From assembly GCA_945889495.1 (NCBI GenBank), contig CAMDBU010000053.1, forward strand, positions 1-34,511: a stretch of 34,511 bases of DNA, in the 5' to 3' direction. The position numbers and the translations under genes were made by a program. The notes under the pieces are model-generated. The model saw only the letters and a program-made list of their open reading frames with translations. It made no database searches and had not been told where the DNA came from. The stretch comes from Syntrophobacter sp. SbD2. Its GTDB lineage: Bacteria; Desulfobacterota; Binatia; UBA9968. Positions 435 to 5,642 of the stretch are shown in pieces (position 1 is the stretch's first letter; every line of letters starts with the position of its first letter).

Positions 435-1352
435 GTGAATAATATTCACTTACTTCAAAACGAGCCGAAGCAGCTTGATCGGTTGGCCGCTCATCGTCAG
501 CTCTATTCCACAGCGAAGCGAGTATTAGCTGCGCAGGCGATTTTGGGTGGCCCGATAGCTGTCGCGTCGGTTCTTGCAATCACAGCGATGCCTGATTTGA
601 AGGGATATGCCGCTTTTTGGGGCTTGATCGTGTCATTAGGTGATATGTTGTGGCTTAATCCGTGGCAGAAGAGACTCCGAGAAAACGCAGCTAAAATCCA
701 GGAATCTTTTGATTGTGAGGTGCTTCAAATACCTTGGAATAATATTAAGACGGGAAATTGGCCCGATGCTGAACTTGTAAAGGAGCAGTCTGACAAACAT
801 AGAAAAAGGGCTCCAGAGATGCCGCCGCTTGAAAACTGGTATGCTCCCGTCGTTGGAGAACTCTCCTGGGACTTAGCCCGTATTGTATGTCAGCGGTCGA
901 ACTGCTGGTGGGAGTCAAAGCAGCGCCGCCGGTATACCGTTTGGATTGTGGGTGGGCTAGTTGCTGTCGGTGTAGCAGCTCTTGGCCTCGGATTGGTCGG
1001 CGGATTGACGGTCGAAAAACTGTTTCTCGCGATTATTGCGCCGTTGATGCCGGCTGTTATCCTTGGTGTCCGGCAGTGGACCGAACACTCTGAGGCTGCG
1101 ACCAGACTCGATAAACTCAAGGAGCATGCGGAACGGCTGTGGGCTGACGCCTTTAATCACCTTAACAGCACCGAACTTCTCTCCAAGTCTCGTGCTCTTC
1201 AGGACGAGATTTTCGAGAGCCGAAAGCGAAGTCCCCTGGTTTTCGACTGGATCTTTCGTCGTCTACGAAACGAGTACGAAGCTCAAATGAACCATGGGGC
1301 ACAGGAACTCGTCGATGATGCGAAACGGCGACTCGGCGTGGACAAAAGTTGA
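435..1352 (+). CDS. S-4TM family CBASS membrane effector
   Basis: This 305-aa protein fits the SMODS-associated four-TM effector family (S-4TM), predicted to open or disrupt the inner membrane when it senses the cyclase's nucleotide product. Four hydrophobic segments are visible in two pairs, at about residues 31-52, 56-74, 167-190 and 194-213. A soluble segment between the pairs carries the family-like FDCEVLQIPWN (residues 92-102), and a charged helical C-terminal tail follows. The GTG start lies 2 nt after the cyclase stop with no clear Shine-Dalgarno, which suggests translational coupling. Base composition is visibly more AT-rich than in the metabolic genes further right, consistent with acquisition by transfer. 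The gene appears intact, but its partner cyclase is truncated in this contig. The family assignment is from remembered features and context, not from a search. Confidence 0.78.
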   Translation: MNNIHLLQNEPKQLDRLAAHRQLYSTAKRVLAAQAILGGPIAVASVLAITAMPDLKGYAAFWGLIVSLGDMLWLNPWQKRLRENAAKIQESFDCEVLQIPWNNIKTGNWPDAELVKEQSDKHRKRAPEMPPLENWYAPVVGELSWDLARIVCQRSNCWWESKQRRRYTVWIVGGLVAVGVAALGLGLVGGLTVEKLFLAIIAPLMPAVILGVRQWTEHSEAATRLDKLKEHAERLWADAFNHLNSTELLSKSRALQDEIFESRKRSPLVFDWIFRRLRNEYEAQMNHGAQELVDDAKRRLGVDKS

Positions 1353-1364
1353 TAATCCGTAGTT

Positions 1365-4300
1365 ATGAGCCCAAGCGACTACACCGAAGAGTATCTTGTC
1401 GAACAGCCCGCCATTGAACTCTTCGCGGAGCTGGGTTGGCAGACGGTGTCGGCTTTGGAAGAAACATTCGGCTCCGCCGAACCCTCAGCCCAGCCCTTTC
1501 CCGGTGGGCGAGGGGGTTGGTTAGGGCGCGAGACCAAGTCGGAAGTTGTTCTCATCCCAAAACTCCGCGCGGCACTGGAGCGGTTGAATCCGGACCTACC
1601 CATTGACGCGATCAATTCCGCAATCGATGAGCTGGCACGCGACCGCTCCGCGATGGGTCTCGCTGGTGCGAATCGGGAAATTTGGGAGTTAATGCGAGAC
1701 GGCGTGAAGGTTTCGATTGTCGATCGCGAACGTGGAGGGATTAAAACCGAGCGAGCGCGGGTCGTCGATTGGGACAATCCACAGGCGAATGACTTTCTGC
1801 TCGTGAGCCAGATGACGATCACGGGCGAGCTTTATACTTGCCGGCCTGATCTGATCGGATTCGTCAACGGTCTGCCGCTCGTCATCATTGAACTCAAGAA
1901 GCCTGGCGTTCCCGCCAAGCAGGCGTTCGACGATAATCTCACCAGCTATAAACATCTGCAAAACGGCATCCCCGCGCTGTTTTGGTACAACGCACTCTTG
2001 ATCGCTTCCAACGGCGCCGATAGCCGCGTCGGTTCGCTGACGGCGGAGTGGGATCGCTTCACCGAGTGGAAACGCATCGAACGCGAGGACGAGCCACGGC
2101 GAGTGTCGCTCGAAGTAATGCTGCGCGGCCTGTGCGAGCCGACAAGGCTCTTGGACTTCGTCGAGAACTTCACGCTTTTCTCCGAGCACAAGAGCGGACT
2201 CGTCAAAGCCATTGCTCAAAATCATCAGTATCTTGGAGTGAACAACGCGATCCGCGCGACGCTGGCGGCGCGCGAAGCGGGCCATGGGCGGGGCGGTGTC
2301 TTTTGGCAGACTCAAGGTTCAGGCAAAAGCTTCGCCATGGTGTTCTTCGCGCAAAAGATTCTGCGCAAGGTGCCGGGCAACTGGACCTTCGTGATCGTGA
2401 CCGACCGGGTCGAGCTGGACGAGCAGATCGCCAAAACCTTCGCCGCCTGCGGCGCGGTGAGCGATGCCAACATCAGTCATGCCGAAACCGGCGCCGAGCT
2501 ACGCGAGCTACTAACGGGCAACAACCGCTACGTCTTCACGCTGATTCACAAGTTTCAGACGCCGGAATCGCTCTGCGACCGGCGCGACGTGATCGTGCTC
2601 ACCGACGAGGCGCACCGCACGCAGTACGACACCCTGGCGCTCAACATGCGCGCGGCATTGCCCAACGCGCTTTTCCTCGCGTTCACCGGGACGCCGTTGA
2701 TCGCAGGCGAGGAACGCACGCGCGAAGTGTTCGGCGATTACGTGTCGATCTACGACTTCCAGCAATCGGTGGAAGACGGCGCGACGGTGCCGCTGTTTTA
2801 CGAGAACCGCACGCCGGAGTTGCATCTCGATAATCCCAATCTCAACGACGACATCTACGAGCTGATCGAACAGGCCGACTTGTCCGAAGAAGCGGAGAAG
2901 CGGCTGGAGCGCGAACTTGGCCGGCAGTACCATCTGATCACGCGCGACGACCGGCTGGAGACCGTCGCCAAGGATATAGTTCGCCATTTTCTCGGCCGCG
3001 GCTTTCAAGGCAAGGCGATGGTGGTGTCCATCGATAAGCCGACCGCCTATCGCATGTACGATAAGGTTCGGAAGTACTGGAAGGAAGAGTACGAGCGGGT
3101 GGAGATGGCGCTCAGGCGTGAACGGCCGTCGGATGAATTTCGAGCTGAACTTGAGGAGCGGTTGGAGGTTCTCAAAACCACCGACATGGCTGTGGTGGTG
3201 TCGCCGGGTCAGAACGAAGTCGAAGATCTTAAGGCCATCGGCATTGACGTGGTGCCGCATCGCAAGCGTATGATCGCTGAAAAGCTCGACGAAAAATTCA
3301 AAGACCCGGCCGATCCGTTTCGTTTGGTGTTTGTCTGCGCCATGTGGCTCACCGGTTTCGACGCGCCGAGCTGCTCGACGATCTATCTCGACAAGCCGAT
3401 GCGCAATCACACGCTGATGCAAACCATCGCCCGCGCCAACCGCGTCTATCCCGGCAAGCAGAGCGGCTTGATCGTCGACTACGCCAACGTGTTTGCGTCG
3501 CTAGAAAAAGCGTTGGCGATCTACGGCAAAGGGCAGGGCGGTGAAACGCCGCTGCGCGATAAGAAGGAGCTGGCGGAGCAGTTGCGTTTGGCGGTCAACG
3601 ACACGACGGCGTTCTGCCGGCTAAATGGCATCGAACTGGCGCGGATCGAGGCGATCTCGACCGCCAACTTCGCCCGCGTGGGGGCGATCCAGGAGGCGGC
3701 GGATAAACTCATGGCGCCGGAAAACTTGCGCCGCGACTTTTTGAGCAAGGCCGGTTTGGTCGGCGCGCTCTATCGCGCGGTCAAGCCGGACGTCGCGGCG
3801 ATCGAACTCGCGCCACGCTGCGGCTGTATCCTGGCGATCGCCGAGCGTATCCGTGCCATCGTGGACCCGCCGGATATATCGTATGTGCTGCAAGGCATTC
3901 AGGAGCTGCTTGACGAATCGATTGCCGCGGTGCCGTTTACCATCAGCGAGAAGAAGGGCGGCTACTTCGATCTTTCAAAGATCGACTTTGCCGCGCTGCG
4001 AAAAAAATTCGCCAAGGACAAACCGACCAACACCGATCTGGAGCGTTTAAAAGCCGCCGTGCGCGCGCAGTTGGAGCGCCTGGTGCGGCTTAATCGGACG
4101 CGCGCCGATTACCTGACTAAATTTCAGGACCTGATCGACAGCTACAACGCCGGTAGCCGCAACATCGACGATATATTCCGAGAACTGCTCGACCTCTCCG
4201 GCATCCTCACCGAAGAGCAGACCCGCCATGTGCGCGAGAACTTGAGCGAAGAAGAGTTGACGATTTTCGATATCCTGACGCGCCCCGGCCCCGACCTGAC

Positions 4301-4556
4301 CACCGAAGAACATGACGAGGTCAAAAAAGTCGCCCGCCAGTTGTTGGAGCGGTTGAACGAGCTGCTAGTGATTGGCTGGCGGCAAAGAGTTGGCAGCCGA
4401 GCGCGGGTGCGGTTAGCCATTGAAGATGCGCTGGACGAAGGTCTACCGCGCGCTTACTCGAAAGACGTCTATCAAACCAAGTGCACGGCGGTCTTCGAGC
4501 ATGTCTACGAGAGTTACCAGGGGGAGGGGAAAAGCGTGTACGCGGAAAGTCGGTGA
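1365..4556 (+). CDS. hsdR: Type I restriction endonuclease, R subunit
   Basis: This is the 1063-aa motor and nuclease subunit of a type I restriction-modification enzyme, which translocates unmethylated DNA and cuts it. The N-terminal nuclease has the PD-(D/E)xK pattern (D162, then E176 and K178 in IIELKKP). The SF2 helicase motor shows Walker A TQGSGKS (316-322), DEAH (414-417), TGTP (441-444) and motif [10 protein letters not shown] near residue 685. The length is normal for the family. The ATG lies 12 nt after the S-4TM stop with no strong ribosome-binding site, so it is probably in the same operon as the CBASS genes. No hsdM or hsdS is present; they may lie left of the contig edge, since CBASS genes are often embedded in hsd loci. 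Residues about 37-53 are encoded by a palindromic repeat that is absent from the usual alignment at this point. Confidence 0.95.
1481..1530 (+). repeat. Palindromic intergenic-type repeat inside hsdR
   Basis: The sequence runs CCCTCAGCCCAGCCC ... GGGGGTTGGTTAGGG, an imperfect inverted repeat around a GGT centre. It resembles the CCCTCACCC/GGGTTAGGG palindromes usually found between genes, and resembles the element at 5571-5620 in this window. It is read in frame and adds a Pro/Gly-rich patch (PFPGGRGG) to HsdR without breaking the frame. Confidence 0.6.
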
Positions 4557-4592: not shown

Positions 4593-5642
4593 TCACCGGT
4601 TTTTCTGAAACAATCCTTCCTTCTCCAACTCTTGCACGAGACTAGCATCAACAAAGCTTGCCGGATTTGTGCCGCTGGCATCTTTGCCTAGCGTGCGCAG
4701 CAATTGTTTGACGCCTTCGAGGTCGACGTTGATGGTTTTTTGCAAATGTTTTTGGCCGTAGATGCGGTAGGACTCGGCTAAGATTTCCGGTTCTTCGACG
4801 CGGGTGTATTTGGCAAGTATCTTGATCGCGCCGTCGCGGTCGTTGTGGGTTTCTTGGACGCCTTGATAATAGGCGCGCAGCACGCGGAGCACGGTGTCGC
4901 GGTTGGACTTGATATAGGCGCGCCGGGTGCTGAGCGGCGAGTTCATGTAGGGGACGCCCAGGTCGGCGGAGTCGATGAGTTCGCGCAGGCCCAACTTCAT
5001 GCCGCGCAGGTTACTCGGCGCCGAGATCATGGCGCCGTCGACGAACGCCTTACTGACCGCAAGGATCATGTCTGGCATGCCGCCGCGGATCGCCATCACC
5101 GTGACATCGCGGCCGCGCTGCAGGTTATATTTATCCAAGATCATGCTCAGCACCAGGTCGGGCGAATCGCCCAGGCTGGTGACGCCGATCTTCTTGCCCT
5201 TTAAATCTTCCGGCCGTTTCAAATCGCCACGGGTCATGAGCGAAAACACCGGCACGTTGATGGTGTTGGCGATCACCGCGAGGTCGGCGCCGCGCAGAGT
5301 GGCGCCGATGACCGTGGGCGGCGAGGCGCGGGTGAATTGCACTTCACCGGCGATCAGCGCTTCGATGGCGATGCCGCGGATGTAGGTCAGTTCGACGTCG
5401 ACGCCCTGTTTGTCGAAGAGCTTTTTGTCCTTGGCGACAAACAGCGGCAGCATGGCGGCGCTGATCGAGCTGTAGGCGATGCGCACTGGGGCGGCGTGGG
5501 CGATCGTTGGGAAGATAACAAAAGCGGCCAGAATGAGTAGTGCTATTTCGCAGCTTCGAATGGCGCTTGCACCCCTATCCCAGCCTTTCCCCGTCGAGGG
5601 GAAAGGGGTAAGAGAGGGCGACCCGTTTGAATTTCGCATCAC
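4593..5642 (-). CDS. ABC transporter substrate-binding protein (SsuA/THI5/NMT1-like)
   Basis: This is a periplasmic type-II binding protein of about 330-349 aa from the NMT1/THI5/SsuA group, which binds small organic ligands such as sulfonates or pyrimidine precursors. The mature part starts around APVRIAYSS and keeps the family landmarks KKLFDKQGVDVEL, LKGKKIGV and a ligand-pocket GGMPD. The C-terminus ('FVDASLVQELEKEGLF') closely matches the binding protein at 18432-19433, so the two are paralogues. The N-terminus is odd. The frame is open from GTG 5642 or ATG 5639, but the first ~25 codons come from a palindromic repeat, after which a normal hydrophobic signal segment ending IAHA follows. 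The true start may be a non-ATG codon nearer that segment; no convincing Shine-Dalgarno was found. There is no permease or ATPase next to it. The ligand is unknown. Confidence 0.85.
   Translation of the reverse strand: MMRNSNGSPSLTPFPSTGKGWDRGASAIRSCEIALLILAAFVIFPTIAHAAPVRIAYSSISAAMLPLFVAKDKKLFDKQGVDVELTYIRGIAIEALIAGEVQFTRASPPTVIGATLRGADLAVIANTINVPVFSLMTRGDLKRPEDLKGKKIGVTSLGDSPDLVLSMILDKYNLQRGRDVTVMAIRGGMPDMILAVSKAFVDGAMISAPSNLRGMKLGLRELIDSADLGVPYMNSPLSTRRAYIKSNRDTVLRVLRAYYQGVQETHNDRDGAIKILAKYTRVEEPEILAESYRIYGQKHLQKTINVDLEGVKQLLRTLGKDASGTNPASFVDASLVQELEKEGLFQKNR
5571..5620. repeat. Palindromic repeat at the start of a binding-protein gene
   Basis: A perfect 9-bp stem, CCTTTCCCC (5584-5592) and GGGGAAAGG (5598-5606), surrounds a GTCGA loop, flanked by CCCCTATCCCAG and GGTAAGAGAGGG. 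It belongs to the same loose family as the element inside hsdR. It overlaps the apparent N-terminus of the binding protein on the minus strand, encoding the PSLTPFPSTGKGW stretch. Confidence 0.65.

Follow-up and report, generated by a model that had tools for sequence, protein, structure and literature searches.

The window analysed here, the whole 34,511-nt stretch of contig C53 of the source genome (G000), carries a type I restriction gene, hsdR, with a short palindromic repeat inside its reading frame. The features needed for the argument are the following.

435-1352, plus strand: S_4TM family gene (SMODS-associating 4TM effector; PF18159, E 2e-93), directly upstream of hsdR
1365-4556, plus strand: hsdR, type I restriction subunit, an uninterrupted ORF of 1063 aa with Pfam domains HSDR_N, SWI2_SNF2, T1R_D3-like and T1RH-like_C
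1467-1481, plus strand: small perfect hairpin TTCGGC-TCC-GCCGAA abutting the repeat (from sequence and folding), 4 nt of which are missing in the orthologue of genome G307
1482-1514, plus strand: BoxC/PIT/TM repeat, 33 nt, HsdR residues 40-50 (from sequence, genomic copies and the E. coli copies in Table 1, within the available part of PMC4666352)
1482-1490, plus strand: arm 1, CCCTCAGCC, one mismatch to CCCTCACCC, equal to the third TM-motif arm on the other strand
1494-1502, plus strand: arm 2, CCCTTTCCC, preceded by the 3-nt spacer CAG, one mismatch to CCCTCTCCC
1506-1514, plus strand: arm 3, GGGCGAGGG, preceded by the 3-nt loop GGT
1521-1526, plus strand: TTAGGG, the Leu-Gly codons of the conserved LGRET, outside the repeat (from HsdR alignments)

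The restriction subunit matches the HsdR of EcoR124I, both as a sequence match in the PDB and as a predicted-fold match (residues 1-320). S_4TM effectors are associated with CBASS, and since such a gene stands beside hsdR, this region of the window may be a defence island. Elsewhere in the window, a triplex-type palindrome, CCCTCTCTTACCCCTTTCCCC TCGAC GGGGAAAGGCTGGGATAGGGG, occupies 5573-5618 in the N-terminus of ORF 4593-5642 (minus strand), which by eye resembles a substrate-binding protein; the palindrome perhaps lies upstream of the true start, and its BoxC-type score of 21-21.5 is inside the range of the Markov control described below.

A BoxC/PIT/TM unit in a predicted loop of HsdR

The original prediction placed a palindromic repeat in frame within hsdR, and CCCTCAGCCCAGCCCTTTCCCGGTGGGCGAGGG indeed lies there in the uninterrupted ORF 1365-4556. 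The element is laid out as 9+3+9+3+9 nt (CCCTCAGCC-CAG-CCCTTTCCC-GGT-GGGCGAGGG), and the opposite strand reads CCCTCNCCC-loop-GGGAGAGGG-NNN-GGGTGAGGG, which is the BoxC/PIT/TM arrangement with its arms, short loop and 3-nt spacer. Under a scoring scheme in which one arm position may be A, C or T, it matches 25 of 27 arm positions, with two arms deviating from the consensus. This is the maximum for the window, against 21.5 for the best among 100 same-length order-1 Markov sequences, so chance does not account for it. The plus strand folds into a hairpin, the only type of fold computed, at -10.3 kcal/mol (z -3.4), and the ends of this copy (left flank CCGAA, right flank GGTTGG) lack the GTAG/CGTC tag of REP elements. 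The element was also predicted to be a dispersed one with further copies in the genome, and this proved correct: the consensus pattern with at most 3 mismatches gives 31 genomic matches, against 3 for the reversed control, and a strict pattern gives 13 copies including that in hsdR, against 0 for its reversed version.

The borders of the unit differ from those first proposed. The element ends with GAGGG at 1514, and since other genomic copies stop at GGGNGAGGG and have divergent right flanks, TTAGGG is excluded from the repeat. A palindrome with the right arm GGTTAGGG, as originally drawn, is thus rejected: TTAGGG at 1521-1526 represents host codons of the conserved LGRET, at which the G307 orthologue has TTGGGG. 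The predicted gain of about 16 residues holds as the distance between EETFG and LGRET, which is 16 residues in this HsdR, but the nearest relatives have 4, giving a net gain of 12, and the element itself contributes 11 residues (40-50) rather than 16.

Most homologues have no element at this site, as predicted for relatives: it is missing from 41 of 42, namely 29 of 29 site-covering homologues and 12 of 12 further site-covering homologues from IMG/VR, but the closest orthologue, in G307, has it. The 30 loci taken first were the best-scoring ones, and L024, L047 and L048 fall short of the site; the IMG/VR set comprises 26 loci, 23 of them aligned (L265, L267 and L269 omitted) and 12 spanning the site. 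Loci L073-L076 and L080-L086 entered the BoxC scan without a site alignment, and L242-L245 entered neither. Within the HsdR loci scanned, G000 and G307 alone show a copy inside hsdR; a single match in L031 (score 21) is at chance level, and the matches in L076 lie beyond the matched stretch.

The position of the insert in the protein was modelled with AF2 on HsdR residues 1-320. With 26 sequences the model has a mean pLDDT of 85.3 and a pTM of 0.86, and it places residues 40-50 in a long coil that leads from the strand at 26-29 to the helix at 64-74; pLDDT falls below 50 at only two stretches, 42-48 and the C-terminal 315-320. A run with 3 sequences was dropped (mean pLDDT 34.9). According to the model, the eleven added residues probably occupy a floppy loop of the nuclease domain. 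In addition, the repeat is rarely interrupted by stops on one of its strands: among 122 copies from four genomes, the three frames are open in 122, 121 and 99 copies on the C-rich strand and in 104, 89 and 30 on the other. Because the unit of 33 nt equals 11 codons and the C-rich strand is mostly open, an insertion into a loop would often be translatable without damage. A further test of frame by length modulo three gave multiples of three in 36 of 41 copies within ORFs and in 49 of 81 others. It was set aside and is not counted as evidence, since G327 alone supplies 65 of the 122 copies, every one of those found there being 33 nt long, and many ORFs that span them seem spurious.

The same hsdR site in G307, in another frame

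G307 belongs to another genus of the same family, and among the orthologues found its HsdR is the closest (81% identity across 312 aa, residues 1-312). It carries a repeat at the same site (CCCTCACCCCGGCCCTCTCCCAAAGGGTGAGGG, 33 nt), with a score of 27. Translation of this repeat is shifted by one frame (...RSDPHPGPLPKGEGVCLGRET), and because the reading frames differ the peptides differ as well: PHPGPLPKGE is unlike the peptide of G000, and the insert peptide is not conserved between the two. At position 4 of arm 3, G000 has a C that keeps its frame open (CGA), where the G307 orthologue has TGA. The flanks are offset by 4 nt ahead of the repeat and by 1 nt behind it. Without its 33 nt, the G307 gene is exactly as long as its nearest relatives with an empty site and thus shows no target duplication; the G000 gene has 3 nt more. 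Since the closest orthologue found has the element at the same site, the insertion either predates the split of G000 and G307 or arose twice, and its earlier description as a live, recent event is wrong or unshown.

One may argue that the segment is a chance Pro/Gly-rich loop, or an artefact of assembly or binning, given that both genomes are drafts (239 contigs for G000, about 430 for G307) and that G307 is listed at 9% contamination and has frameshifts in its hsdR and hsdM. This is very improbable: the score of 25, where 100 simulations did not exceed 21.5, and the genome-wide copies of the family speak against chance, and the shared site in two separate genomes, with hsdR and hsdM of G000 uninterrupted, speaks against an artefact. 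The frameshifts in both genes do suggest that the restriction system of G307 may be decaying. In line with an insertion, a second, fragmentary hsdR N-terminus upstream of hsdR on contig C255 of G307 (L077) is without the repeat (EEVFGPKGTLKRETK).

Strong purifying selection acts on the gene around the repeat. In the comparison of G000 with G307, dN/dS (NG86) is 0.070 for hsdR over 782 codons upstream of G307's frameshift, and 0.112 for hsdM over 466 codons, about 20 of them badly aligned beside G307's frameshift; the synonymous distance is large, about 1.5. The likeliest history, which we favour with moderate confidence, is a single BoxC insertion in an ancestral hsdR followed by a switch of frame, the peptide being neutral filler. 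A 33-nt unit (11 codons) would have entered the nuclease domain at a permissive loop that joins its first beta strand to the helix following LGRET. Its survival would be owed to a length divisible by three, to the scarcity of stops on its C-rich strand and to the tolerance of the loop, and hsdR would thus have kept an open frame under purifying selection. After the split, compensating indels (4 nt before, 1 nt after) would have shifted the frame of the repeat in one lineage. Since nothing but the repeat lies between these two small indels, the frame could be changed at little cost, and the peptide, most likely neutral filler, would then diverge while the DNA repeat stays recognisable. That there was one insertion rather than two, that the loop is tolerant and that the peptide is neutral are the parts of this history that we infer.

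A weaker but appreciable possibility is that BoxC units entered the same favoured loop separately in each lineage. Both the different frames and the sharpness of the repeats would then be accounted for. The flank offsets of 4 nt and 1 nt and the TGA of G307 in the frame used by G000 fit such a course, but the insertion points at the right flank are no more than 1 nt apart and the count of events favours one.

The degree of conservation bears on both histories. Between G000 and G307 the repeat at this hsdR site shows 7 differences in 33 positions, with 3 in the 27 arm positions, whereas third codon positions of hsdR differ at a rate of 0.487 (binomial P 0.0011 for 33 positions, 4e-5 for 27 arm positions). 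No other result weighs as much against plain neutral decay, although the repeat is better kept than third positions only and not than the whole gene, its difference being about equal to that at all positions, 0.227. Neutral filler read in different frames would be expected to decay further, so the sharpness of the repeat favours either upkeep at the DNA level or two insertions; arms closer to each other than third positions count for the latter too. Upkeep would mean that selection, or gene conversion between copies, retains the hsdR repeat as a DNA or mRNA structure, for instance in pausing, regulation or as a recombination site. We regard this as improbable: arms that exceed third codon positions in conservation despite differing frames argue for it, as does the instability reported for E. 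coli TM loci in the available part of PMC4666352, but the G000 copy is off consensus in two arms (25/27), and the same part of that source did not find a stable triplex supported in vivo and refers to promoter or terminator activity as absent.

Copies in hsdM and across the order

The probable partner gene of hsdR lies on another contig.

C84:2301-3998, minus strand: hsdM, probable partner of hsdR, on the same contig as hsdS

That this hsdM pairs with the hsdR of C53 is probable, judged across contigs; in G244 a single contig carries the counterparts of both genes. The G000 hsdM also contains a BoxC copy of its own, 33 nt long, oppositely oriented and in frame, at a site we call M3. At M3 the G307 hsdM has an insertion with the same flank (CAGAATTTAC) and in the same frame, 12 nt shorter and with one arm gone, and the two M3 repeats differ at 3 of 36 nt. 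On the same contig C84 (L211), a BoxC-like copy at 1195-1227, with a score of 24, adjoins hsdS, and a RhuM-family gene (PF13310; 1267-2367, minus strand) lies between hsdM and hsdS.

Further copies emerge from a fuzzy scan of 58,925 bases (L210, L211 and the window), in which some sites were scored on both strands. At a score of at least 22 it gives 12 matches against 2 in the reversed control, and at 23 or above 10 against 1. The G307 hsdM has four copies, of which one measures 38 nt, one 32 nt, one is what is left at M3 and one is degenerate (38 nt); its hsdR has two, each of 33 nt, which gives a total of six with two decayed; because reversed-control matches occur at such scores, the weakest two hsdM copies (22.5 and 23) lean also on the hsdM alignment. 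Among the best loci for hsdM, 3 of 29 other homologues have an in-frame BoxC copy (G145, G248 and G173), and L225 and L229 have one beyond the matched hsdM stretch. At a further site, M4, in the loop ahead of a DVPGLC-like motif, G248 and G173 have their BoxC copy and G307 its degenerate one. In two other hsdM genes (L239 and L236, from G157 and G111), other in-frame palindromic stretches, one encoding LPAGRQ and one of a GGGGCAACC/GGTTGCCCC type, sit in loops that elsewhere hold BoxC.

The hsdM copies bear on the history of hsdR in several ways. The little-changed M3 repeat likewise counts against neutral decay, and the loss of one M3 arm in G307 counts against upkeep. For separate insertions, the occupation of M4 in three genomes indicates that repeated hits at one loop seem to occur, whereas the frame, flank and repeat common to both genomes at M3 look like common descent.

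A broader and rather doubtful proposal is that type I restriction-modification genes are favoured targets of BoxC and other small palindromes, that HsdM and HsdR loops are hit repeatedly in unrelated lineages, and that the repeats may, through frame changes and recombination, contribute to switching or diversification of the system. Clustering of copies in hsdM plus hsdR has P values of 3e-4 for G000 (2 copies) and 2e-13 for G307 (6 copies), both post hoc, computed for these two genes only and based on rounded copy numbers (28 and 40). If the proposal is true, hsd genes would supply both occupied and empty sites, and the mechanism of BoxC mobility could be read from them.

Across the order, exact copies occur in 23 of 35 genomes, up to 106 per genome, with all controls at 0. 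G000 has four inverted pairs whose starts are separated by 38 nt (contigs C37, C38, C79 and C144). Copy number varies widely within genera: G305 has 106 and G327 has 98 exact copies, and other listed genomes of the same genera have 0-5. Mobilisation by a RAYT was considered and rejected, as no BoxC pattern occurs in the 2.9-3.3 kb loci around the three PF01797 (Y1_Tnp) matches in the genome.

Relation to known repeats

The element shares with the BoxC/PIT/TM family of intrastrand-triplex repeats (Holder et al. 2015, PMC4666352, as far as its text is available) the three 9-nt arms, the 3-nt spacer, the short loop, the dispersal and the occurrence of some inverted pairs, those of G000 resembling the type A/type B pairs of E. 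coli. Copies are 34-37 nt in E. coli and mostly 33-38 nt here. The same portion of that source reports 23 TM copies in E. coli MG1655, always intergenic, in agreement with the original view of the element as normally intergenic, whereas here copies are translated in hsdR and hsdM; intergenic location is a property reported for E. coli and stands outside the sequence definition of BoxC. Among the literature matches listed, from full-text searching with thin coverage of subscription journals, there was no BoxC inside hsdR or hsdM, and likewise no BoxC coding insertion, no recurrence in hsdM and hsdR and no single orthologous site read in two frames.

Copies in conserved genes have alignable borders, which intergenic copies offer less readily, and thus help to date insertions and define the unit. 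Orthologues that read one repeat in two frames also offer a natural test of the importance of repeat-encoded peptides. In annotation, bacterial Pro/Gly-rich peptides of the SPLPxGEGxGVRG type become recognisable as possible repeat read-through.

In-frame palindromic repeats as such are already established, as RPE, intragenic REPs, RU elements and Cod-2 (sources as far as available). The Rickettsia RPE (PMC10969869) is likewise a palindromic repeat in frame in unrelated genes, the protein being presumed functional, but it measures about 150 bp with a conserved peptide, and the 33-nt unit described here is unrelated in sequence and falls outside that family. The GTAG/CGTC REPs (PMC3733652) are also short, lie inside ORFs, several per gene and many in DNA-repair genes, and occupy about the same recB site in two Xanthomonas species; they are of another sequence class and linked to a tyrosine transposase, a link not found here. 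Enterobacterial RU elements (PMC2759123) are small repeats in coding sequences too, with units of 103-168 bp. Cod-2 (PMC2267715) is a small repeat within coding sequences that yields frame-dependent peptides; it is spread over various coding sequences, whereas here one orthologous site is read in two frames.
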